Source: Prevotella sp.
GTDB taxonomy: Bacteria; Bacteroidota; Bacteroidia; Bacteroidales; Bacteroidaceae
Assembly (NCBI GenBank): GCA_017557405.1
Contig: JAFYYV010000040.1
Span: 39,290-103,289, forward strand
DNA: 64,000 nt
Direction: 5' to 3'
A model generated the notes under the pieces. That model searched no databases. It saw only the letters and a list, made by a program, of their open reading frames with translations, and was not told where the DNA came from. Shown here one piece after another: positions 22,622 to 62,169 of the stretch; the stretch's first letter is position 1; every line of letters starts with the position of its first letter. The translations under genes were made by a program, and so were the position numbers.

Positions 22622-22629
22622 TATCTTTG
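22622..22629 (+). promoter_or_regulatory. -7 box for the fetA-like gene
   Basis: TATCTTTG, only five bases before ATG 22635; a leaderless transcript is predicted. Confidence 0.65.
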
Positions 22630-50754: not shown

Positions 50755-53700
50755 TTAATAGTCGCGCTGCATATCTGCAATCTTTTGACGCAGTTTGTTC
50801 ATCTGCTCTTCCTGCAGCACGCGTTTGTATTCGATGGGTACTACTTGAACGAACTCCTCGCAGTAGTGGTTCCAATCGTCGAGCATACGTCCTGCCAATG
50901 CCGAACCAGTGTGTAGGTAATGCTGACGGATGAGTTCGAGCAGTTCCTTGCGTGATACGCTGTCCTCAACCAAATTGATTTCAACCATATCCATATTGCA
51001 GAAGTAGTCGAAGTTGTGTTTGCGATCCCAAACGTATGCTACCCCCCCACTCATACCAGCAGCGAAGTTACGGCCCGTCTCGCCAAGAACTACCACGCGC
51101 CCTCCAGTCATATATTCGCAGCAGTGGTCGCCTGCACCTTCAATCACAGCGATGGCACCAGAGTTACGCACGCCGAAGCGCTCACCAACCTTTCCATTGA
51201 TATATAATTCGCCTGAGGTGGCACCATACAATCCTGTGTTACCGGCAATGATGTTGTCTTCAGCATGGAAATCCTCGCCAGAGCGGGCTGGAGGCAGAAT
51301 AGAGATGCGTCCACCACTCAATCCTTTGCCGAAGTAGTCGTTGCACTCGCCCTCAAGCTTGAGGTTGACACCACGAACGGCAAATGCGCCAAACGACTGA
51401 CCAGCAGAACCTTTGAACTTGATGTTGATAGTGCTGTCTGGCAATCCTACTTCGCCATATTTCTTAGCAATGACACCAGAAAGCATAGTAGTTACAGCAC
51501 GATCGGTATTCTTGATAGTATAGTCGAGAGTCACTTCTTCACCCTCATTGATGGCCTTCTCTGCAGCCTTGATAATCTCCTCGTCCTTCACGCCACTAAC
51601 CTTTGTGAAAGCACTACGATCCCAGAACAGAGCCTTGTCAGTCTCAGGCTTGTGCAGCAAGCGAGCAAAATCGATGGTCTTCTGCTTATTAGTAGCATTT
51701 GTGGTATTAACTTCAATTAGTTCTGTACGTCCGATAATCTCTTTAAGACTGTGAACACCTATCTCACTCAGGTACTCGCGCACTTGCTCAGCCAAGAATG
51801 TGAAAAAGTTAACCACATATTCCGCACGACCTTGGAAGTGCTTACGCAATTCTGGGTTCTGTGTTGCCACACCCATCGGGCAGGTGTTGGTATTACATTT
51901 ACGCATCATCACGCAACCCAAAACAATCAGTGGAAGCGTTCCAAATGAGAACTCGTCGGCTCCTAGCATTGCCATGATGATAACATCTTTTGCGGTCTTC
52001 AACTGACCATCAGTCTGCAGACGTACTTGGTTGCGCAGACCATTGATGACAAGCGTTTGTTGGGTCTCAGCTAAACCGATCTCGGGCGAGATGCCTGCAA
52101 AACGCATTGAGCTGGCAGGGCTTGCACCTGTTCCACCCTCGGAACCACTGATTACAATGAGGTCGGCCTTGGCCTTTGCAACACCTGCAGCAATGGTTCC
52201 CACGCCACTTTCTGCAACAAGCTTCACACTGACGGCAGCTGTTGGGTTGATATTCTTCAGGTCGAAGATGAGCTGAGCCAAATCCTCAATACTATAGATG
52301 TCATGATGGGGTGGAGGAGAGATGAGTGAAATGCCAGGAATGGCATTACGTGTCTTGGCGATGATTTCGTTCACCTTGAAGCCAGGCAATTGTCCACCCT
52401 CACCAGGCTTGGCACCCTGTGCCACCTTGATTTGTATTTCTTCAGCATTCACCAGATATTCGGCAGTAACACCAAAACGTCCTGATGCAATCTGTTTTGT
52501 CTTCGAGGACAGTGATACACCATCCACCTCAGTATGATAGCGGGCGTTGTCCTCACCACCTTCACCCGTATTGCTTCGTGCACCTAGTTTGTTCATTGCA
52601 AGAGCTAAAGCCTCGTGAGCCTCAATACTCAGCGCACCGAAACTCATGGCACCTGTCACAAAGTGTTTGACAATCGACTCTACAGGCTCTACTTCTTCGA
52701 TAGGTGTAGGCTTGGCGGCTTTCTTCCAACCAAAGAAGTCGCGAATAAAGATGGGGCTTTCCTTCTCGTCAACTTGAGCTGCCCACTCTTTGAACTTCTT
52801 ATAGCTTCCCAGACGGGTAGCCAACTGCAGGTTAGCAATCGTTTCAGGATTCCAAGCATGCAGTATACCATCCTTACGCCAAGAGAACTGACCTTGGTTC
52901 TGTAACATCGTTTGCTGCTTGGCAGCCTCGTGCAGACGGATTGCATCGCGGGCAATCTCCTTCAAACCAACACCACCAATGGTGCTTACTTCTGTACCGA
53001 AATATCTTCTCAATATATCTTCACTGAGACCGATAGATTCAAAAATCTTTGCTCCACGATACGAGCGGATGGTCGAGATTCCCATCTTCGACATGATCTT
53101 TTTCAAGCCCTTATCTACAGCCTTGATGTAGTTCTTTTCGGCCGTAGCATACTCTTCTTGGATCTTGTGTTTCTTCACTAAATCATCAAGAATGGCGAAT
53201 GTCATGTAGGGACAGAGTGCGCTGGCACCATAGCCTAACAGTAATGCTGCATGCATCGTCTCGCGAATCTCACCGCTCTCAACAATCAGAGCAGTCTGCA
53301 CGCGCTTGCCTACGCTAATCAAGTAATGGTGAACTGCCGAAACAGCCAATAGTGATGGGATGGCTGCATGCTTTTCATCGATATCGCGATCGGTTAGGAT
53401 GATGTAGTTCACACCTTCATCCACGCTCACCTCAGCTTGATGGCAGAGGTCATCAAGGGCCTTACGCAGACCTTCCTCACCCTGTGCTATTTCGAACAAC
53501 ATGGCGAGTTTTTGTGTCTTGAATCCTTTATAGCGGATATTACATAATATATCGAGTTGCGTGTTGGTCAAAACGGGTTGTGGCAGGCGGACCATCTTAC
53601 AGTTCGATGCATCGGGTGTCAGGATGTTGGTTCCTACAGCGCCGATATATTCGGTAAGACTCATCACCAGTTCCTCGCGGATAGGGTCGATGGCAGGGTT

Positions 53701-55275
53701 GGTGACCTGTGCAAACTGCTGACGGAAATAGTTGAACAGCACCTGTGGACGGTTTGAGATAACAGCTAGCGGTGTGTCATTACCCATCGCTGCTACTGGT
53801 TCCTGACCAGCTGTTGCCATTGGAACGATGGTCTTATCGATGTCTTCCTGACCAAAACCGAAAGTGACAAGTTTCTGTTCAAAGTCGCTTACGCCATTCT
53901 CCACGTGGCGACCACTCTTCAGTTTCTCCAATTGCACGCGGTTCTCGTTCAACCATTCGCGATAAGGATGTGCCTTAGCCAGCTTCTCCTTGATTTCACC
54001 ATCGTAGTAGATCTTGCCTTCCTGCGTGTCAATGAGCAGAATCTTGCCAGGCTGCAGGCGGCCTTTGCTTACCACATCGCCAGGTTCAAAGTCCATCACT
54101 CCAACCTCACTGGCCACTACCATCATACCACCTTTTGTAATAGTATAACGGCTTGGACGCAGACCGTTTCTATCCAACATTCCACCAGCATAGCGGCCAT
54201 CGCTGAACAACAATGCTGCAGGACCATCCCACGGCTCCATGAGGATGGAATGATATTCGTAGAATGCCTTCAGATCCTCGCTGATTGGGTTCTTGTCGTT
54301 GAAACTTTCGGGTACCAGAATTGCCATCGCCTGCGGCAACGACAGTCCACTCATCATCAAGAACTCGAAAACGTTATCGAGGCTTGCCGAGTCACTCATG
54401 CCCTCCTGCACGATGGGACGCAATGGCTTGATGTCGCCCAAAGCTTCACTGTTCAGCACACTCTCGCGTGCCTTCATCCATCCACGATTGCCACGAATGG
54501 TGTTGATTTCACCATTGTGTGCCAACAAACGGAAAGGCTGTGCCAACTTCCATTTTGGGAATGTGTTTGTGCTGAAACGTGAATGTACCAATGCCAGGCC
54601 ACTCGTCAGATAGTCGTTCGAGAGGTCTGGGAAATAGCGGCGCAACTGTCCGCTGGTCAGCATTCCTTTGTATATAATGTTTTTGTTCGACAGCGAGCAG
54701 ATGTAAAAATCCTCGTTGTCGATGCGGTTTTCAATCTTCTTCCTGATTTTATAAAGGGTGCGATCGAATACAGGTACATCATCATCGCTCACACCTGTAA
54801 CGAAAATCTGCTTGATGGCGGGTTCCACCTCGCGTGCAGCAGCTCCCAACACCTCGGGGTTCGTGGGTACCGTGCGCAGATGCATCAACTGCAGTCCCTC
54901 GCGCTCAATCTCTTCAATCATCACAGAGAGAATCTCCTGTTGCGCCTTCTCGTCTTTCGGCAAAAAGACCAGTCCTGTGCCGTATTTTCCTTTCTCCGGC
55001 ACAGGGATGCCTTGCAGCAGAATAAACTCGTGAGGAATCTGAATCATGATGCCCGCACCGTCGCCCGTCTTATCGCGTGTTTCAGCGCCGCGGTGCTCCA
55101 TGTTCTCCAGCACCTTCAATGCTTGGTCCACCAGATCGTGGCTCTTTCCGCCGTGAATATTCACTACCATTCCAACGCCACACGCATCGTGCTCGTAGTC
55201 TGGTTGGTAGAGCCCTTCTTGTGCCCTTCTTTCATCCTGTATTCTTTGCGATGTTTGAAGTTTGCAATTTGTCAT
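50755..55275 (-). CDS. gltB: Glutamate synthase large subunit
   Basis: 1,506 residues from ATG 55275, which follows the -7 box at 55317-55324; the open frame upstream passes through that box. A propeptide precedes nucleophile Cys in YEHDACGVGMV. The glutaminase domain (to about 420) has NTFPKWKLAQPFRLLAHNGE and RGNRGWM; the central domain is followed by the FMN synthase barrel with SVKLVAESGVGT, ISGSEGGTGASP and 3Fe-4S Cys in CVMMRKCNTNTCPMG; the C-terminal beta-helix is Gly-rich (GGRISILPP, GAIAVIEGAGDHCCEYM). It turns 2-oxoglutarate and glutamine into two glutamates with GltD. First gene of the operon. Confidence 0.97.
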   Translation of the reverse strand: MTNCKLQTSQRIQDERRAQEGLYQPDYEHDACGVGMVVNIHGGKSHDLVDQALKVLENMEHRGAETRDKTGDGAGIMIQIPHEFILLQGIPVPEKGKYGTGLVFLPKDEKAQQEILSVMIEEIEREGLQLMHLRTVPTNPEVLGAAAREVEPAIKQIFVTGVSDDDVPVFDRTLYKIRKKIENRIDNEDFYICSLSNKNIIYKGMLTSGQLRRYFPDLSNDYLTSGLALVHSRFSTNTFPKWKLAQPFRLLAHNGEINTIRGNRGWMKARESVLNSEALGDIKPLRPIVQEGMSDSASLDNVFEFLMMSGLSLPQAMAILVPESFNDKNPISEDLKAFYEYHSILMEPWDGPAALLFSDGRYAGGMLDRNGLRPSRYTITKGGMMVVASEVGVMDFEPGDVVSKGRLQPGKILLIDTQEGKIYYDGEIKEKLAKAHPYREWLNENRVQLEKLKSGRHVENGVSDFEQKLVTFGFGQEDIDKTIVPMATAGQEPVAAMGNDTPLAVISNRPQVLFNYFRQQFAQVTNPAIDPIREELVMSLTEYIGAVGTNILTPDASNCKMVRLPQPVLTNTQLDILCNIRYKGFKTQKLAMLFEIAQGEEGLRKALDDLCHQAEVSVDEGVNYIILTDRDIDEKHAAIPSLLAVSAVHHYLISVGKRVQTALIVESGEIRETMHAALLLGYGASALCPYMTFAILDDLVKKHKIQEEYATAEKNYIKAVDKGLKKIMSKMGISTIRSYRGAKIFESIGLSEDILRRYFGTEVSTIGGVGLKEIARDAIRLHEAAKQQTMLQNQGQFSWRKDGILHAWNPETIANLQLATRLGSYKKFKEWAAQVDEKESPIFIRDFFGWKKAAKPTPIEEVEPVESIVKHFVTGAMSFGALSIEAHEALALAMNKLGARSNTGEGGEDNARYHTEVDGVSLSSKTKQIASGRFGVTAEYLVNAEEIQIKVAQGAKPGEGGQLPGFKVNEIIAKTRNAIPGISLISPPPHHDIYSIEDLAQLIFDLKNINPTAAVSVKLVAESGVGTIAAGVAKAKADLIVISGSEGGTGASPASSMRFAGISPEIGLAETQQTLVINGLRNQVRLQTDGQLKTAKDVIIMAMLGADEFSFGTLPLIVLGCVMMRKCNTNTCPMGVATQNPELRKHFQGRAEYVVNFFTFLAEQVREYLSEIGVHSLKEIIGRTELIEVNTTNATNKQKTIDFARLLHKPETDKALFWDRSAFTKVSGVKDEEIIKAAEKAINEGEEVTLDYTIKNTDRAVTTMLSGVIAKKYGEVGLPDSTINIKFKGSAGQSFGAFAVRGVNLKLEGECNDYFGKGLSGGRISILPPARSGEDFHAEDNIIAGNTGLYGATSGELYINGKVGERFGVRNSGAIAVIEGAGDHCCEYMTGGRVVVLGETGRNFAAGMSGGVAYVWDRKHNFDYFCNMDMVEINLVEDSVSRKELLELIRQHYLHTGSALAGRMLDDWNHYCEEFVQVVPIEYKRVLQEEQMNKLRQKIADMQRDY

Positions 55276-55316
55276 ATTATCCTTACTTTTACTTACGTTT
55301 TGTATATTTTTGGGTA

Positions 55317-55324
55317 CAAAGGTA
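55317..55324 (-). promoter_or_regulatory. -7 box for the gltB operon
   Basis: TACCTTTG on the minus strand, 41 nt before ATG 55275. Confidence 0.75.
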
Positions 55325-55369
55325 ACGCATTTTGATATTATATCCAAACATTTGCTTGCATTTTTAACC

Positions 55370-55427
55370 TTAAAAAAGTGTGCTAGTGGCATTTTGCTTG
55401 ATAATCCCCCTTTTTTCTTTCATTTTG
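55370..55427 (-). promoter_or_regulatory. Nitrogen module of the gltB promoter
   Basis: On the minus strand, CAAAATG starts at 55396 (proximal, 72 nt from the -7 start) and at 55427 (distal, 31 bp further); TTTAA lies at 55374-55370. A third CAAAATG starts at 55477. Boxes read AGCAAAATGCCA, AGCAAAATGAAA and AGCAAAATGACA. Confidence 0.6.
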
Positions 55428-55457
55428 CTATCTATCGAGTGGTTTCTCGGTTTCATT

Positions 55458-55544
55458 CTTTACAAATTGTCATTTTGCTCCTAAAACAAGGTGGCTGTGG
55501 GCGAGCACAATGCAAAGAAACAATCATTCTGACAAATTGTAAAC
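55458..55544. promoter_or_regulatory. Inverted pair of motif variants between gltB and glnK
   Basis: CTTTACAAATTGTCA at 55458-55472 and its inverse CTGACAAATTGTAAAC at 55529-55544. They differ by one or two bases from the CTTTACAAAATGTCAG of the glnK and amtB2 promoters and lie about midway between the divergent promoters. Confidence 0.5.
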
Positions 55545-55575
55545 GAAATATCGGATTTCTGGAATGAAAGGGTGT

Positions 55576-55634
55576 CAAAATGCGATGGTAAATGGGTTGG
55601 TGCTTTACAAAATGTCAGCAAGTGTAATATTTAA
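55576..55634 (+). promoter_or_regulatory. Nitrogen module of the glnK promoter
   Basis: CAAAATG at 55576 (distal) and 55608 (proximal, inside CTTTACAAAATGTCAG), 32 bp apart; TTTAA at 55630-55634. The proximal box starts 72 nt before the -7 box. Confidence 0.65.
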
Positions 55635-55679
55635 CAATCAAACTGATAGATTTTTTATTATTATTCCAACATTATGCAT

Positions 55680-55687
55680 TATTTTTG
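55680..55687 (+). promoter_or_regulatory. -7 box for glnK-amtB-porin
   Basis: TATTTTTG without a good -33 TTTG, as expected for an activator-dependent promoter. Confidence 0.65.
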
Positions 55688-55715
55688 CAGTGTCAATTGA
55701 CAGAGTGACATCCCA

Positions 55716-55779
55716 AAGTGGTTATATTATTATTAATAAGGTTAAAAAAGTGGTTATATTATTATTAATAAGGTTAAAA
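55716..55779 (+). repeat. 32-bp perfect tandem duplication in the glnK leader
   Basis: Two identical 32-bp copies (55716-55747, 55748-55779), each starting AAGTGGTTATATTATTATTA. They lie in the untranslated leader, ending 10 bases before the start codon; the second copy sets the ribosome-loading sequence. Confidence 0.85.
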
Positions 55780-55789
55780 GAGTAAAGGT

Positions 55790-56137
55790 ATGAAAAAGAT
55801 TGAAGCAATTATCAGGAAGACCAAGTTCGAGGAGGTCAAGGAAGCCTTGCTTTCATCGGACATCGATTGGTTTGAGTACCACAACGTCCACGGTATCGGT
55901 CAGAGCCGACAGGAAAGAATCTATCGTGGCGTGCAGTACTCAACAGACGTGATAGAGCGTGTGGCGCTGACCATTGTATGCCGTGATCAGTTTGTGGAGC
56001 CGACGGTAAAGGTGATTCTCAGTGTGGCCCATACGGGTGAAGTTGGCGATGGTCGCATCTTCGTGAGCGAAATGATCGACACTTGGAGCATCCGCACAGG
56101 TGAGCATGGAGACACCGTACTTCGAGACAAGAAGTAA
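55790..56137 (+). CDS. glnK: P-II nitrogen regulatory protein
   Basis: A 115-residue trimeric sensor. The T-loop carries ERIYRGVQYSTD with Tyr50 at the place of the uridylylated Tyr51; the B-loop is TGEVGDGRIFV, where ATP/ADP bind, and the C-terminal part has IRTGEHGD. It senses 2-oxoglutarate and adenylate charge and plugs AmtB. Position directly before amtB marks it as GlnK type. Whether it is uridylylated here is open, as no glnD is in the window. Confidence 0.95.
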   Translation: MKKIEAIIRKTKFEEVKEALLSSDIDWFEYHNVHGIGQSRQERIYRGVQYSTDVIERVALTIVCRDQFVEPTVKVILSVAHTGEVGDGRIFVSEMIDTWSIRTGEHGDTVLRDKK

Positions 56138-56189
56138 AAAGTGAGTAGTGAACAATGAATAGGATAACAATGCAAAAACTTTAAAGATT

Positions 56190-57443
56190 ATGAACGAAAT
56201 TGGATTATCACTCGATACTGTATGGATGCTATTGGCAGCCATGTTGGTTTTCTGGATGCAGCCAGGTTTTGCGCTGTGTGAGGCAGGTTTTACACGAAGC
56301 AAGAACACGGCCAACATCCTGATGAAGAACTTTGTCGACTTCATGTTCGGCTCGCTCTTATTCTTCTTCCTCGGATTCGGATTTATGTTCGGCAGCGAGG
56401 GTGCAGGTTTTATCGGTATGCCCAACTGGGGTGACCTCTCTTTTTATAAGGGTGACCTCCCCGTAGAGGGTTTCCTGATTTTCGAAACCGTGTTTTGTGC
56501 TACCAGTGCTACGATTGTGAGTGGAGCAATGGCTGAGCGCACGAAATTCTCGATGTATCTCATTTATAGTGCAGTCATCTCCTTGTTCATCTATCCCATC
56601 GAAGGTCACTGGACGTGGGGTGGTGGTTGGCTTTGCAACGATGCTGCCGACAGTTTCATGATGAGTACTTTTGGAGATGTGTTCCACGATTTTGCAGGTT
56701 CTGCTATCGTGCATAGCGTAGGTGGTGTATTGGCTTTGATTGGTGCAATGGCCCTCGGTCCCCGTATCGGCAAGTATGCGAAAGACGGTAAGAGCCGTGC
56801 TATTCCTGGTCACAACCTGACAATGGCCGCTCTCGGTGTGTTTATCCTCTGGTTGGGTTGGTTCGGATTCAACCCCGGCTCACAGCTGGCAGCAAGTGGT
56901 GAGGTGAACCGTGTTGCCATCTCTCACGTGTTCCTGACCACCAACCTTGCAGCTGCAGCAGGTGGTGTGGCCACGATGTTCCTCACCTATATCAAATATG
57001 GAAAGCCCTCACTCTCTCTAACGTTGAACGGTGTGTTGGCAGGCCTTGTGGGCATCACGGCAGGTTGTGACCTCGTATCGCCCTTTGGCGCCATTATCAT
57101 CGGATTGGCGTGTGGTATCGTATTGGTCTACGCCATCGAGTTCATCGACCACAAACTGTACATCGACGACCCTGTGGGTGCAAGTTCTGTGCACGGAGTG
57201 TGTGGCATCCTCGGCACGTTGATGACAGGTCTGCTTTCTACCTCCAATGGTGCGTTCTATGGACACGGCTGGGGATTCTTCGGAGCTGAGTTGTTTGGCA
57301 TCTTGGTCATCGACCTCTGGGCAGCAGCCTGCGGATTTGCCCTCTTCTATGGAATCAAGAAGGTTCACGGCCTGCGAGTTGGAAAGCGTGTGGAGGAGGA
57401 AGGTCTCGACATCTACGAACATGGAGAGGCTTGTTATAACTAA
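56190..57443 (+). CDS. amtB: Ammonium transporter
   Basis: A 417-residue protein with eleven hydrophobic segments. FWMQPGFALCEAGFTRSKNT opens the Amt fold. The twin-His pore is FAGSAIVHSVGG (first His) and GASSVHGVCG (second His); FIYPIEGHWTWGGGW carries the Phe/Trp recruitment site. It conducts ammonium into the cytoplasm and is closed by GlnK. It follows glnK by 52 nt. Confidence 0.96.
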   Translation: MNEIGLSLDTVWMLLAAMLVFWMQPGFALCEAGFTRSKNTANILMKNFVDFMFGSLLFFFLGFGFMFGSEGAGFIGMPNWGDLSFYKGDLPVEGFLIFETVFCATSATIVSGAMAERTKFSMYLIYSAVISLFIYPIEGHWTWGGGWLCNDAADSFMMSTFGDVFHDFAGSAIVHSVGGVLALIGAMALGPRIGKYAKDGKSRAIPGHNLTMAALGVFILWLGWFGFNPGSQLAASGEVNRVAISHVFLTTNLAAAAGGVATMFLTYIKYGKPSLSLTLNGVLAGLVGITAGCDLVSPFGAIIIGLACGIVLVYAIEFIDHKLYIDDPVGASSVHGVCGILGTLMTGLLSTSNGAFYGHGWGFFGAELFGILVIDLWAAACGFALFYGIKKVHGLRVGKRVEEEGLDIYEHGEACYN

Positions 57444-57509
57444 ATAAGTAAAAAGTGAAGAGTGAAGAATTTACTTCCGCACTGTAATAAATTGAAAAGG
57501 AAAAAGAGT

Positions 57510-58211
57510 ATGAAAAAGATTGTTTTATTCGCAATGGGTTTGGTTGCTGGGGCGACCACCCATGCACAGGAGATAGAAACGACGATAAGTGGTGATGTCG
57601 TAAGTAGTTACATCTGGCGTGGACTTGATTTGGGAAGTGCTGCCATACAGCCGACACTAGGTGTGGAATACAAAGGTTTGTCGTTGACTGCTTGGGGCAG
57701 CTATGGATTGGTAGATTCTGCCGACACGAAAGAGTTCGACCTCACCCTCGCTTATACAGCAGGAGGTTTCAATATTGGAGTTACCGACTATTGGTTTAGT
57801 TCGGGTCTCGATCCTGAAGGCCGCTATTTCAAGTACGACGCGCATGGAACAAACCACGTTTATGAGGCCAACATTGGCTATGATTTCGGTGTTGCTTCGT
57901 TGCAGTGGTTCACCAACTTTGCGGGCAACGATGGGGTGAACAAGGACGGCAAGCGGGCCTACAGCAGTTATCTTGAAGCATCGGTCCCATTCAAACTTGC
58001 TACGGTGGATTGGACTGCTACAGCCGGTGCCGTCCCCTTTGCTACCGATGCATATGGCACGACAGGTTTCGCTGTCACCAACCTTGCTTTGAAGGCGACG
58101 AAAGACATCAAAGTGACCGATTCGTTCACGATACCCATATTCGGTCAGGTTGTCGCCAATCCTTGCGCTCAGAAAGCATACCTGGTTCTTGGTTTCACGC
58201 TGCAACCCTAA
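57510..58211 (+). CDS. TorF/Gcw_chp-family putative porin
   Basis: A 233-residue protein from ATG 57510 with signal peptide MKKIVLFAMGLVAGATTHAQ. The mature protein is a 10-14-strand amphipathic barrel: ISGDVVSSYIWRGLDLGSAA at the start (the family-typical S-x-Y-x-W-R-G), FNIGVTDYWFSS, and a C-terminal LVLGFTLQP with terminal aromatic/hydrophobic pattern. Third gene of the glnK operon. It may be the outer-membrane channel through which nitrogen compounds enter (inferred from the operon). Followed by a strong terminator. Confidence 0.8.
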   Translation: MKKIVLFAMGLVAGATTHAQEIETTISGDVVSSYIWRGLDLGSAAIQPTLGVEYKGLSLTAWGSYGLVDSADTKEFDLTLAYTAGGFNIGVTDYWFSSGLDPEGRYFKYDAHGTNHVYEANIGYDFGVASLQWFTNFAGNDGVNKDGKRAYSSYLEASVPFKLATVDWTATAGAVPFATDAYGTTGFAVTNLALKATKDIKVTDSFTIPIFGQVVANPCAQKAYLVLGFTLQP

Positions 58212-58228
58212 TCTTTTCCAGGTACCAT

Positions 58229-58263
58229 CTCCCTTCCGCTCAGCATGGCGGGAGGGAGTTTTT
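58229..58263 (+). terminator. Terminator of the glnK operon
   Basis: CTCCCTTCCGC pairs with GCGGGAGGGAG, followed by TTTTT. Confidence 0.92.
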
Positions 58264-58385
58264 GTATTAAAACACGCCTTTTCAAGAGTGATACATTCGT
58301 CTGAAGCGCTGAAAGAAAGTTTTTTGCGTGAAAAAGGAAATGACTTTTTGCAATGAAATGGCAGGTTTTCAAGACAAAGTGATAA

Positions 58386-58444
58386 CAAAATGACAATCAA
58401 ATATGGATTGAACTTTACAAAATGTCAGTAAAGTAATATTTTAA
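58386..58444 (+). promoter_or_regulatory. Nitrogen module of the amtB2 promoter
   Basis: CAAAATG at 58386 (distal) and 58418 (proximal, inside CTTTACAAAATGTCAG), 32 bp apart; TTTAA at 58440-58444. The proximal box starts 72 nt before the -7 box. Same geometry as at glnK and gltB. Confidence 0.65.
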
Positions 58445-58489
58445 CAAACAAAACGAAAGAAAAATAACAATTTTTCTATCAGAACGTTG

Positions 58490-58497
58490 TAATTTTG
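58490..58497 (+). promoter_or_regulatory. -7 box for amtB2-glnN
   Basis: TAATTTTG, 26 nt upstream of ATG 58524; no good -33 element. Confidence 0.65.
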
Positions 58498-58523
58498 CAC
58501 CCAGAGACTAGCAATTAAATTAT

Positions 58524-59912
58524 ATGAAGGTAAAAAGACGTTGGAAGATACTGATGGCGGTGATGACATTGATTGCCGTAGCAGGATTGGCGGTTGGAGA
58601 ACCGTCGTTTGAGTGTGACTGGTCGGTGATATCTGCAGCCGACGTAGCTTGGTTGATAACAGCCACGATTTTTGTTTTGATGATGACACCAGGTTTGTCA
58701 TTCTTCTATGGTGGAATGGTAGGAGCCAAGAATGTGATTTCCACGATGCTCCAATCGTTCATCGCAATGGGATTGATATCGGTGTTGTGGGTTGTTATCG
58801 GTTTCTCGCTGTGTTTTGGCGACGATATTGGTGGCATTATCGGCAATCCTTTGTCGTTCCCGATGTTCCACAATGTAGGTGGTGCAGTTTACACCACGCC
58901 CGCGGGTAATGTGTTAGGTGGTGCAACGATACCATTGGCATTGTTCGCCTTATTCCAGATGAAGTTTGCCATCATCACACCCTCGTTGATCACTGGCTCA
59001 TTTGCCGAGCGTGTGCGTTTTTCGGCCTACATGTTCTTCATGATGTTCTTTTTCTTCGTCATCTACTGTCCGTTGGCACACATGACGTGGCATCCTGAGG
59101 GATTGTTCATGCGTTGGGGAGTTGTTGACTTCGCAGGTGGTATCGTGGTGCACGCCTCCAGTGGTATTGCAGCCCTCGCAGGAGCCATTTTCCTTGGACG
59201 GCGTAAGGCGGAGACCCGTAAGAGTGAACCTGCCAACATCCCCTTTGTACTTCTGGGAGCAGCCATGTTGTGGCTCGGTTGGTTTGGCTTCAATGCGGGT
59301 TCTTCGCTACATGCCGATGGACAAGCCGTCAAAGCCTTCCTGAATACGAACACGGCTTCGGCAACCGCCATGATGACGTGGATATTCTTCGACTGCCTGC
59401 GCGGTCGCAAACCCTCTGCAATGGGTGCTGCCGTAGGTTGCGTAGTCGGTTTGGTGGCCATCACGCCCTCTGCCGGTTATGTCACCGTAGGACAAAGCAT
59501 TTTCATCGCTTTCGTCATCACCCTCATCTGCAACATCGCCGTTTATTGGCGTTCCCACTCACGTATTGATGATGCCCTCGATGTGTTTCCCACGCATGGA
59601 ACGGGTGGTATCTTCGGTACGGTGCTGACGGGTATCTTCATCCAGGATGGATTGATCTCAGGCACACGCGAAGGATTTGTGATATTCCTCTTCCATCTGT
59701 TGGCCATTGTCATCGTATTTGTCTATACCTTCGCCATGAGTTGGGTGGGGTATAAACTCATCGATATGCTCATCCCCATGCGAGTGTCGGCCTATAGCGA
59801 GAAAGTAGGCCTCGACTTCTCACAGCATCGTGAGCACTACGGATTGGCTCACATTGGCGAGCGCGAGTTGGCTGAGTACGAGGAGCACTTGAAAGAGAAA
59901 GAAAAGAAATAA
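58524..59912 (+). CDS. Second ammonium transporter
   Basis: A 462-residue paralogue of AmtB with an added N-terminal segment (MKVKRRWKILMAVMTLIAVA), which may be a signal peptide or anchor. Amt features: MMTPGLSFFYGGMVGAKNV, ITGSFAERVRFSAYM, the first pore His in AGGIVVHASSGIAAL and the second in DVFPTHGTGGIFGT. The C-terminal cytoplasmic tail is charged (EEHLKEKEKK). Cotranscribed with glnN (40 nt gap), pairing uptake with assimilation. Confidence 0.94.
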   Translation: MKVKRRWKILMAVMTLIAVAGLAVGEPSFECDWSVISAADVAWLITATIFVLMMTPGLSFFYGGMVGAKNVISTMLQSFIAMGLISVLWVVIGFSLCFGDDIGGIIGNPLSFPMFHNVGGAVYTTPAGNVLGGATIPLALFALFQMKFAIITPSLITGSFAERVRFSAYMFFMMFFFFVIYCPLAHMTWHPEGLFMRWGVVDFAGGIVVHASSGIAALAGAIFLGRRKAETRKSEPANIPFVLLGAAMLWLGWFGFNAGSSLHADGQAVKAFLNTNTASATAMMTWIFFDCLRGRKPSAMGAAVGCVVGLVAITPSAGYVTVGQSIFIAFVITLICNIAVYWRSHSRIDDALDVFPTHGTGGIFGTVLTGIFIQDGLISGTREGFVIFLFHLLAIVIVFVYTFAMSWVGYKLIDMLIPMRVSAYSEKVGLDFSQHREHYGLAHIGERELAEYEEHLKEKEKK

Positions 59913-59952: not shown

Positions 59953-62169
59953 ATGGAAGCATTAAGATTTCAGGTTGTCGGCGAGGCATTCAAGAAGAAG
60001 CCGCTAGACGTAAAGACACCAAGTGAGAGACCTTGTCAGTATTTCGGCAAGAAAGTGTTCAACCGCGAGAAGATGTACAAATATCTGCCGAAGGATGTCT
60101 ATGAGAAGATGATTGATGTCATCGACAATGGCGCCCGACTCGACAGGGAGGTTGCTGATATTGTGGCTGCAGGCATGAAGCAGTGGGCCACCGAGAATGG
60201 TGTGACACACTATACGCACTGGTTCCAGCCGCTGACAGAAGGCACCGCCGAGAAGCACGACTCGTTTATCGAGCACGATGGAAAGGGTGGAATGGTTGAG
60301 GAGTTCACAGGTAAGTTGCTCGTTCAGCAGGAGCCCGATGCATCGAGCTTCCCCTCTGGTGGAATCCGCTCCACCTTCGAGGCTCGTGGCTATTCGGCTT
60401 GGGACCCCACATCGCCTGTGTTCATCATCGAAGACACCCTGTGCATCCCCACCGTATTCATCTCGTATTCGGGTGAGGCACTCGACTACAAAGCTCCGTT
60501 GCTGCGTGCCCTTCATGCCGTGAACGTGGCTGCCACCGATGTGTGCCATTACTTCGACCCCAGTGTGAAGAAAGTCACTTCCAACCTCGGTTGGGAGCAG
60601 GAATATTTCCTCGTTGATGAAGGCCTTTATGCCGCCCGTCCCGACCTGTTGCTCACGGGTCGCACGCTGATGGGACACGATAGTGCCAAGAACCAGCAGA
60701 TGGAAGACCACTATTTCGGAGCCATTCCCGAGCGTGTAGCAGCCTTTATGCGCGACCTCGAGATTCAGGCTTTGGAACTCGGTGTACCTTGTAAGACACG
60801 CCACAACGAGGTGGCTCCCAACCAGTTTGAGTTGGCTCCCATCTTCGAAGAAACCAACCTTGCCGTTGACCACAACATGATGCTGATGAGCCTGATGAAG
60901 AAAGTGGCTCGCAAACATGGCTTCCGTGTACTGCTGCACGAAAAACCATTCGCCGGCATCAACGGCTCTGGAAAACACAACAACTGGTCGTTGAGCACCG
61001 ACAACGGTGTGCTGCTGCATGCACCGGGCAAGAACGCCGAGCAGAACCTCCGTTTCGCCACCTTCATCGTTGAGACCCTGATGGGTGTGTATAAGCACAA
61101 CGGACTTCTGAAAGCCTCTATCATGAGTGCTACCAACGCCCATCGTTTGGGTGCCAATGAGGCTCCTCCCGCCATCGTCTCCAGCTTCTTGGGCAAGCAG
61201 GTGAGTGAGTTGCTCGACCATATTGAGAAGGCCGATCAGGAGGATATCCTTTCCTTCGCTGGCAAGCAGGGCTTGAAGATGGACATCCCCGAGATTCCCG
61301 AGTTGTTCATCGACAACACCGACCGCAACCGCACCTCTCCCTTTGCCTTCACCGGCAACCGCTTCGAGTTCCGTGCCGTGGGTAGCGAGGCCAACTGCGC
61401 CAGCGCCATGATAGCCCTGAACAGCGCTGTTGCTGAGGCTCTGGTAAACTTCAAGAAACGTGTTGATGCCCGTATTCCTGAGTTCGAGAAGAAACTTGCA
61501 GGAACCGACCATTCAGCCAAGTTCCACGCTATCATCGATGTGCTGCGCGAGGATATCAAGACCTGCAAGCCCATCCGCTTCGATGGAAACGGTTATTCGG
61601 ATGAGTGGGTTGTTGAGGCCGAGAAACGTGGATTGGATGTCGAGAAATCGTGTCCGAAGATCTTCGAGCGCTACCTCGATCCCGAGAGCATCGAGATGTT
61701 CGAGAGCCTGGGTGTGATGACCAAGAAAGAACTCGAGGCCCGCAACGAGGTGAAGTGGGAGACCTATACGAAGAAGATTCAGATTGAGGCTCGCGTGCTG
61801 GGCGATCTGTCGATGAACCATATCATTCCTGTGGCCACCCATTATCAGAGCGAACTGCTGAAGAACGTGGGCAATATGGGCATCATCTTCCCAATCGATA
61901 CAGCCGACAAACTATCTGCTCGCAACAAGAAGATCATCCAGGAGATTGCCGAGCGTACGCTGGCCATCGAAAAGGGTGTGGAAGAACTTGTTAGCGCCCG
62001 CAAACTCGCCAACAAGATCACCGACGAGCACGACAAGGCCATCGCTTACCACGACAATGTGGAGCCGAAACTCGACGAGATTCGCTATCAGATTGACAAA
62101 CTCGAGTTGATTGTCGATGACAGCCTCTGGCCACTACCGAAGTATCGCGAACTGTTGTTCATACGATGA
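59953..62169 (+). CDS. glnN: Glutamine synthetase type III
   Basis: A 738-residue enzyme, the usual size for GSIII of Bacteroidota. N-terminal GSIII domain: FGKKVFNREKMYKYLPKDV; THWFQPLTEGTAEKHDSF carries catalytic-core residues. The catalytic barrel has GWEQEYFLVD (metal Glu), KTRHNEVAPNQFELAP, FAGINGSGKHNNWSL (ATP and glutamate site) and NRTSPFAFTGNRFEFR. It makes glutamine from glutamate and ammonia; glutamine then feeds the divergent operon. Confidence 0.97.
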   Translation: MEALRFQVVGEAFKKKPLDVKTPSERPCQYFGKKVFNREKMYKYLPKDVYEKMIDVIDNGARLDREVADIVAAGMKQWATENGVTHYTHWFQPLTEGTAEKHDSFIEHDGKGGMVEEFTGKLLVQQEPDASSFPSGGIRSTFEARGYSAWDPTSPVFIIEDTLCIPTVFISYSGEALDYKAPLLRALHAVNVAATDVCHYFDPSVKKVTSNLGWEQEYFLVDEGLYAARPDLLLTGRTLMGHDSAKNQQMEDHYFGAIPERVAAFMRDLEIQALELGVPCKTRHNEVAPNQFELAPIFEETNLAVDHNMMLMSLMKKVARKHGFRVLLHEKPFAGINGSGKHNNWSLSTDNGVLLHAPGKNAEQNLRFATFIVETLMGVYKHNGLLKASIMSATNAHRLGANEAPPAIVSSFLGKQVSELLDHIEKADQEDILSFAGKQGLKMDIPEIPELFIDNTDRNRTSPFAFTGNRFEFRAVGSEANCASAMIALNSAVAEALVNFKKRVDARIPEFEKKLAGTDHSAKFHAIIDVLREDIKTCKPIRFDGNGYSDEWVVEAEKRGLDVEKSCPKIFERYLDPESIEMFESLGVMTKKELEARNEVKWETYTKKIQIEARVLGDLSMNHIIPVATHYQSELLKNVGNMGIIFPIDTADKLSARNKKIIQEIAERTLAIEKGVEELVSARKLANKITDEHDKAIAYHDNVEPKLDEIRYQIDKLELIVDDSLWPLPKYRELLFIR

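Follow-up and report, generated by a model that had tools for sequence, protein, structure and literature searches.

The 64,000-nucleotide stretch of Prevotella sp. DNA analysed here (contig JAFYYV010000040.1 of assembly GCA_017557405.1, positions 39,290 to 103,289; hereafter the window) contains a cluster of ammonium uptake and assimilation genes in which gltB, on the minus strand, diverges from glnK, amtB1, a porin-like gene, amtB2 and glnN, and whose gltB, glnK and amtB2 promoters share an array of short palindromes placed at set distances from a TAnnTTTG -7 box (Table 1). Pfam assignments agree with the roles given to gltB, glnK and amtB2 in a first-pass annotation made from the letters of the DNA, and identify amtB1 and glnN as well. 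The porin-like gene was named by eye and its product has no Pfam or NCBIfam family match; its adjacency to amtB or glnK is kept in relatives, and its real start is probably an internal ATG, reading MKKIVLF. The amtB2 and glnN genes presumably form a single operon.

Table 1. Genes, -7 boxes and palindromic sites of the locus (window positions; distances in nt from the start of the -7 box, upstream unless stated), and copies of a dispersed repeat elsewhere in the same genome (G000; contig:positions)
Feature	Position	Strand	Description
gltB	50755..55275	-	glutamate synthase large subunit; Pfam GATase_2, Glu_synthase, Glu_syn_central, GXGXG; start 55275
glnK	55790..56137	+	P-II protein; Pfam P-II 4.4e-20
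amtB1	56190..57443	+	ammonium transporter; Pfam Ammonium_transp
porin-like gene	57462..58211	+	between amtB1 and amtB2
amtB2	58524..59912	+	second ammonium transporter; Pfam Ammonium_transp
glnN	59953..62169	+	type III glutamine synthetase; Pfam GSIII_N, Gln-synt_C
gltB downstream site	55293..55305	-	19 downstream; imperfect, ATACAAAACGTAA, 6/8
gltB -7 box	55317..55324	-	TACCTTTG
gltB site 13	55325..55337	-	abuts -7 box; CAAAATG core
gltB site 75	55387..55399	-	imperfect, AAGCAAAATGCCA
gltB site 106	55418..55430	-	imperfect, TAGCAAAATGAAA
site common to both divergent promoters	55460..55472		perfect; 148 from gltB -7, 220 from glnK -7
site common to both divergent promoters	55530..55542		perfect; 150 from glnK -7, 218 from gltB -7
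glnK site 107	55573..55585	+	imperfect, TGTCAAAATGCGA; distal box of the first-pass annotation
glnK site 75	55605..55617	+	perfect, TTACAAAATGTCA
glnK site 44	55636..55648	+	CAAACTG core; position conserved in 92 aligned promoters
glnK site 13	55667..55679	+	abuts -7 box; CATTATG core; position conserved
glnK -7 box	55680..55687	+	TATTTTTG
glnK downstream site	55698..55710	+	18 downstream; TGACAGAGTGACA, 7/8 positions; position conserved in relatives
amtB2 site 118	58372..58384	+	AGACAAAGTGATA
amtB2 site 107	58383..58395	+	TAACAAAATGACA, 7/8 positions
amtB2 site 75	58415..58427	+	perfect, TTACAAAATGTCA
amtB2 site 44	58446..58458	+	degenerate; CAAAACG core
amtB2 site 13	58477..58489	+	degenerate; CAGAACG core
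amtB2 -7 box	58490..58497	+	TAATTTTG
dispersed repeat	C13:24989-25152
dispersed repeat	C35:69338-69501
dispersed repeat	C38:16594-16757
dispersed repeat	C42:24929-25092
dispersed repeat	C43:83949-84112

The first-pass annotation had described a pair of CAAAATG boxes at fixed distances from the -7 boxes of the three promoters, and all of its coordinates proved correct. The proximal copies start at 55396(-), 55608(+) and 58418(+), each 72 nt from the first TAnnTTTG base (55324(-), 55680 and 58490), and the second copies, at 55427(-), 55576 and 58386, lie 31, 32 and 32 bp further upstream; a TTTAA starts 22 nt past each proximal box, and the 16-mer CTTTACAAAATGTCAG is identical between the glnK and amtB2 promoters. 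The boxes exist as described, and what had to be revised is their number and nature. A search with a shared 14-mer gave more near copies on both strands of the same intergenic region, which pointed to a dyad, and two independent CAAAATG boxes were rejected as the unit since both are cores of palindromes, which occupy up to six or seven positions in a promoter. The unit is a 13-bp palindrome, TnACA-n3-TGTnA (TnACAnnnTGTnA), with the core CA-n3-TG of which CAAAATG is a case; it is perfect at site 75 of glnK and amtB2 and at both sites common to the divergent promoters, and imperfect at the other boxes. The glnK promoter carries the full set, with sites 18 nt downstream and 13, 44, 75, 107, 150 and 220 nt upstream of the -7 box start; gltB has those at 13, 75, 106, 148 and 218 plus an imperfect downstream site, and amtB2 those at 75, 107 and 118 with degenerate sites at 13 and 44 and no downstream site.

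The arrangement is far from what chance would give. CAAAATG-N22-28-CAAAATG occurs three times in the window against 0.03 expected, a number reached in none of 100 shuffles, and with a spacer of 20 to 30 nt the pair is found four times in the 3.56-Mb genome (reversed control, 0), three of the four being these promoters. Ranked by upstream hits at the preferred distances, the same three stand at the top of the 57 TAnnTTTG boxes of the window (5, 4 and 3 hits), 47 of which have none. Two such hits were also seen at position 22622, but upstream of an ABC-type ATPase gene (by eye), and were taken as chance. The earlier remark that none of the promoters has a good -33 element holds weakly and in aggregate, TTTG being present in the -33 zone of 26 of 108 pattern-selected promoters versus 20 of 57 comparison promoters, a comparison set that still included pyrG, dapF and asnB promoters.

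Relatives of the locus were then collected by P-II homology, as 30 loci first and 80 named loci afterwards. Upstream of glnK, gltB, amtB2 and glnN in these relatives, strict palindromes lie most commonly 74-76 nt (start to start) from TAnnTTTG, next at 148-150, then at 107 and 139-140, with a few 18-19 nt downstream; this survey excluded genes whose start differed by more than 3 residues from that of the homologue or that had less than 260 nt of upstream DNA. Alignment of 92 promoters on the -7 box, a set selected on the site at 75 from which the 16 of 108 records without an assigned downstream gene had been dropped, displays conserved CA-n3-TG-type cores in sites starting 149, 118, 107, 75, 44 and 13 nt upstream. 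The sites thus form a lattice fixed to TAnnTTTG, at 13, 44, 75, 107 (or 118) and about 149 nt upstream and about 19 nt downstream, mostly three helical turns apart.

The test was repeated on 93 TAnnTTTG boxes taken without regard to any site, namely 52 of the window and loci L035-L064, 27 of the more distant L065-L097 and 14 of L098-L114, and the same lattice was recovered from the first two groups; for the lattice and phase counts a box had to have at least 125 or 235 nt of DNA upstream of it. At the 52 nitrogen-gene boxes, CA-n3-[TA]G cores peak at upstream offsets 10 (25 boxes), 72 (23), 104 (15), 41 (13) and 115 (10), where the mean rate over upstream offsets is 2.1%, and at downstream offsets 22 (19) and 21 (7). 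The 27 more distant boxes have core peaks at 10 (11), 41 (7) and 42 (4) upstream and 21 (7) downstream; at least one upstream lattice core is present in 16 of them and at least two in 11, and no off-lattice upstream offset exceeds two occurrences. Boxes with at least two lattice cores were found among Segatella copri, Bacteroides caecigallinarum, Candidatus Bacteroides pullicola and Phocaeicola intestinalis, so that glnK-operon promoters of some Bacteroides, Phocaeicola and Segatella carry the lattice in this site-unselected test. Relaxed T..CA...TG..A sites upstream of 79 boxes number 80, of which 18 lie at distance 75, with a phase concentration of R=0.753 at 10.5 bp; shuffles gave 5.3 sites on average, with no position holding more than 3. 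Since the sequences are related by descent, these counts are not independent events, and the agreement between genera is the stronger argument.

The genes that follow the array were identified through the exact pattern, a strict site separated by 62 nt from TAnnTTTG, which is present in 68 of 200 genus genomes against 2 matches for the reversed pattern. Among 108 distinct places that were read, 92 precede genes for nitrogen assimilation, genes using glutamine or ammonia, or diaminopimelate (DAP) genes, the longest open reading frame (ORF) to start within 600 nt being taken as the downstream gene. BLAST against the proteins of the window assigned amtB1 (29), glnK (3, read together with amtB1 as the glnK-amtB1 operon), amtB2 (18), glnN (17), gltB (9) and por (1), and inspection by eye assigned pyrG (8), dapF (3), dapL (2), ddh (1) and carA (1), with 16 left unassigned; NCBIfam backs PyrG, DAP dehydrogenase, DapL and DapF in one representative each, carA being named by eye alone. 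Lattice cores also lie 5' of a dapF-like gene in Tannerella and of an asnB-like gene in Segatella copri, the latter tested for family as a 70-residue fragment. The regulon would accordingly comprise glnK-amtB(-por), amtB2-glnN, gltBD, pyrG and DAP/lysine genes, with asnB in some relatives and perhaps carA. In two genomes (loci L190 and L205) the strict site-plus-box pattern precedes a conserved protein of about 440 amino acids, a possible regulon member whose L190 copy has no NCBIfam match.

Array, fixed geometry, helical phasing and concentration on nitrogen genes are thus observed across many genomes. The first-pass annotation had proposed a module shared by nitrogen promoters, bound on one helical face, and had named a random genomic distribution or a loss of spacing in relatives as results that would speak against it; the multi-genome lattice and the gene counts support the proposal, the distribution is not random, and the spacing is retained.

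The palindrome by itself is a poorer guide than the palindrome joined to its box. As a regulon marker the strict palindrome alone was rejected, with 57 sites in the own genome against 30 for the reversed control. Its specificity is lost to a dispersed repeat of this genome that has the same palindrome: 50 of the 57 were listed and read, and 23 of the 50 fall within that repeat. Of the palindromes read, none but the nitrogen sites is accompanied by a -7 box at 75 or 148-150. The repeat is intergenic and resembles miniature inverted-repeat transposable or repetitive extragenic palindromic elements; its ends, TGACAnnnTGTAA-like and TTACAnnnTGTCA-like and 151 bp apart, are the 13-mer seen at the nitrogen sites and enclose several AAGCTATGCTTTGAC-type units, and a AGCTATGCTTTGA-type unit also occurs in the window on the minus strand at about 17830. 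One-mismatch hits in the own genome were found at C27:48856 and C45:9746, neither with a convincing nitrogen gene in the ORF lists, and at C32:17807. A separate feature of the glnK leader, at 55718-55780 immediately 5' of the start codon, is a near-perfect direct duplication of about 30 bp, GTGGTTATATTATTATTAATAAGGTTAAAA occurring twice, 32 bp apart.

By gene name, the set can be compared with expression data from Prevotella ruminicola 23. According to Kim et al. 2017 (PMC5552732), amtB, glnK, asnB, gltBD, glnN, dapF and pyrG are ammonium-responsive, with 26 to 69-fold changes for amtB, glnK, asnB, glnN and gltBD, and an ammonium transporter gene is 47-fold higher on ammonium than on peptides. 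Many genes of the proposed regulon thus respond to ammonium in P. ruminicola 23.

For the protein that would bind the array, the form of the sites points to the Lrp/AsnC family as the most likely candidate. According to a review (PMC2995911), Lrp/AsnC sites are 13-17 bp palindromes in imperfect clusters with two- or three-turn spacing on one face, and Lrp-type dimers can wrap DNA; in another paper, a glutamine-responsive Lrp of Sulfolobus wraps DNA and binds ammonia-assimilation promoters including gltB (PMC3584215). The array has both traits, a 13-bp palindromic TnACA-n3-TGTnA site and phased imperfect clusters with cores at offsets 104, 72, 41 and 10 upstream and 21-22 downstream. Lrp/AsnC members were found in all 18 genomes tested. 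The best candidate among them is an AsnC-like protein (group B), encoded in the own genome at C44:101358-101816 beside a gene read by eye as a peptidase C26-type amidotransferase. It is present in 18 of 18 genomes at 76-100% identity (10/10 regulon-positive and 8/8 strict-negative), the regulon-positive genus copies being 79-100% identical to the own copy. Its best solved relative is E. coli AsnC (2cg4, 1.7e-29), and the NCBIfam AsnC model matches it with a score below the cut-off. A second group of the family, group A, was set aside: 8 of its 11 loci (L289-L299) have a metY-like neighbour (O-acetylhomoserine sulfhydrylase-like, by eye) and 6 of the 11 an AGAATA-n-ATTCT-type palindrome, which is likely a second Lrp operator; the own copy (L291) has neither. 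Group A was not found in G271, and in G178 its matches lie in short frames of about 80 residues (C1:686285 and C1:691803), the copy read being interrupted upstream.

Taken together, an even chance is given to the reading that the palindrome array, in its three-turn lattice, controls the ammonium-assimilation regulon of Prevotella and its Bacteroidaceae relatives, most likely via an Lrp/AsnC protein. Several results weigh against it. The strict pattern reaches no more than the 68 of 200 genus genomes given above, and in a family draw of 249 genomes at least 85% complete, with the pattern ending TTTGC, 17 matched, by which the strict form belongs mainly to this genus. The 14 boxes of L098-L114, mostly from Flavobacteriia, have no lattice. 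With two mismatches allowed, the own genome gives 46 site-plus-box places against 35 for the control, so the relaxed pattern lacks specificity on its own. Nearly every genome has the AsnC-like protein, which was found in 73 of 81 family genomes as well as in the eight strict-negative genus genomes, and having it therefore does not set regulon carriers apart. Among the genomes in which no copy was found are G078 (94% complete and with a strict site at glnK), G030 (91%) and G045 (85%), all three of which carry a paralogue 45-47% identical to it. No lattice was seen in the promoters of the AsnC-like gene (5 copies read) or of the paralogue (20 copies read, two with one off-lattice site), and no sign of autoregulation was seen for Lrp groups A-C, for the MerR protein or for the NtrC-like protein in those copies that were read. 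As to expression, PMC5552732 has DAP dehydrogenase highest on peptides, opposite to the other genes, an inconsistent direction of change (one sentence says 'limiting', whereas the figure legend and discussion say 'non-limiting'), and an abstract in which glutamine synthetase-glutamate synthase (GS-GOGAT) expression is similar under both conditions. Presence and absence are in any case weak means for finding the factor, since the strict pattern misses part of the regulon: Segatella copri (L079) and Bacteroides have lattices that lack a strict site at 75.

The same regulon and lattice could instead be served by a regulator of another family (TetR, GntR, XRE, Rrf2, Crp or another DNA-binding protein), which is clearly less probable than an Lrp/AsnC protein and yet the most serious of the alternatives. 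For Crp, two matches over cut-off are present in the own genome, to be set against G178, 99% complete and with a strict site at glnN, where no HTH_Crp_2 match passes the cut-off. The classical LysR T-N11-A box also fits 13 bp; LysR was rejected by absence, no HTH_1 match having been obtained in the own genome or in 9 of 10 regulon-positive genomes. Binding by a small MerR-type protein of about 115 amino acids, similar in size to GlnR/TnrA, is unlikely. In its favour, the half-site letters of the array are those of the GlnR/TnrA sites (TGTNA/TNACA), 10 of 11 genomes have a MerR_1 match over cut-off, and 6 of 8 loci showed the small protein when read. The order of the half-sites is, however, reversed, TnACA-N3-TGTnA here versus TGTNA-N7-TNACA; the GlnR/TnrA box is present in 0 of 77 nitrogen promoters and in neither of two window intergenic regions; G261 (83% complete) has four strict sites and no MerR_1 match; and no nitrogen gene was noticed by eye alongside the MerR loci read.

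Two further explanations are highly improbable. An NtrC-like activator would agree with the three-turn distance of enteric NtrC sites and with the finding that all of 11 genomes encode one or more strong Sigma54_activat proteins. Against it, the array is fixed to a sigma-A-type TAnnTTTG box, the sigma-54 form TGGC-N7-TTGC is absent from all 77 nitrogen promoters and the NtrC form GCAC-N7-GTGC present in one, which bears out the first-pass statement that neither site is visible, and no recognised nitrogen neighbour of the Sigma54_activat gene was seen by eye in 3 loci read. The other, to which just as little weight is given, dispenses with a protein site and takes the array for phased A-tracts with intrinsic curvature or for remnants of promoter duplication; the A-rich cores (CAAAATG) and the 16-mer common to glnK and amtB2 would fit, but the dyad symmetry is conserved on either side of the core and the same lattice precedes unrelated genes (pyrG, dapF, asnB), also in other genera.

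Under the preferred reading, that of an Lrp/AsnC regulator, dimers of a self-associating protein would bind one face of the DNA and might wrap a stretch of promoter that begins about 149 bp before the start of the -7 box and ends about 30 bp past it, dimers of the AsnC-like oligomer occupying the sites from 107 upstream to 19 downstream and further dimers those at 118 and 149. A nitrogen signal, probably an amino acid or amide (glutamine or asparagine, for example), would alter the assembly and switch the sigma-A-type promoter, the supply of peptides turning the genes down and that of ammonium turning them up. With one site abutting the -7 box and another just past it, the protein may wrap the core promoter or repress it besides activating it, and since the box has sites on either side, the genes could be repressed in one state and activated in another.

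A bolder form of this idea is held with a little less than even confidence, raised slightly from an earlier estimate because the lattice continues downstream of the -7 box. It proposes that in Bacteroidaceae, and perhaps Bacteroidales, nitrogen assimilation is controlled by a nucleosome-like regulator that uses six or seven dimer sites in a fixed three-turn lattice to wrap about 180 bp, including the -7 box and probably the start site, in place of NtrC/sigma-54, GlnR, NtcA or AmtR, that it combines activation with repression, and that it reads amino-acid supply and not ammonium. The lattice predicts that half-turn insertions should abolish activity and that whole-turn insertions should largely keep it. 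Bacteroidota dominate the rumen and the human gut, and in the titles and abstract openings listed for open-licence papers on nitrogen regulation or regulons in Bacteroidota no description of this operator or of a Bacteroidota ammonium or nitrogen-control regulator was found; the array is taken as a new operator of a new regulon, with a fixed architecture and probably of the Lrp/AsnC kind. With about ten target genes, this defined cis element opens the question of nitrogen control to direct test, the promoter serving as bait for the protein, and offers a regulatory reading of the non-enteric nitrogen response reported for P. ruminicola 23.

Among known systems, GlnR/TnrA of Bacilli (MerR family) control a nitrogen regulon with glnK-amtB, gltB and glutamine synthetase through TGTNA/TNACA half-sites, and differ in the opposite order and spacing of these and in a box that the 77 promoters lack. 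NtrC with sigma-54 controls glnK-amtB and glutamine synthetase in enteric bacteria from enhancer sites three turns apart, unlike the sigma-A-type promoters described here. NtcA of cyanobacteria, a Crp-family protein, governs a nitrogen regulon together with P-II from GTA-N8-TAC sites; this form is absent from the window intergenic regions, and G178 is regulon-positive without a Crp-type helix-turn-helix over cut-off. The nearest parallel, as far as the consulted parts of its literature go, is the group of promoters under feast/famine (Lrp/AsnC) regulators, for example Sa-Lrp of Sulfolobus acidocaldarius at gltB, where as here imperfect palindromes of 13-17 bp form clusters on one face with a spacing of two or three turns. 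Wrapping of the DNA, amino-acid effectors and nitrogen-assimilation targets are established for such systems in those same parts, the present array being known from sequence, and TnACA-n3-TGTnA itself is not among the Lrp/AsnC sites they describe. Unlike those systems, the lattice described here is fixed to the -7 box, has sites against and downstream of that box, and is conserved gene by gene.

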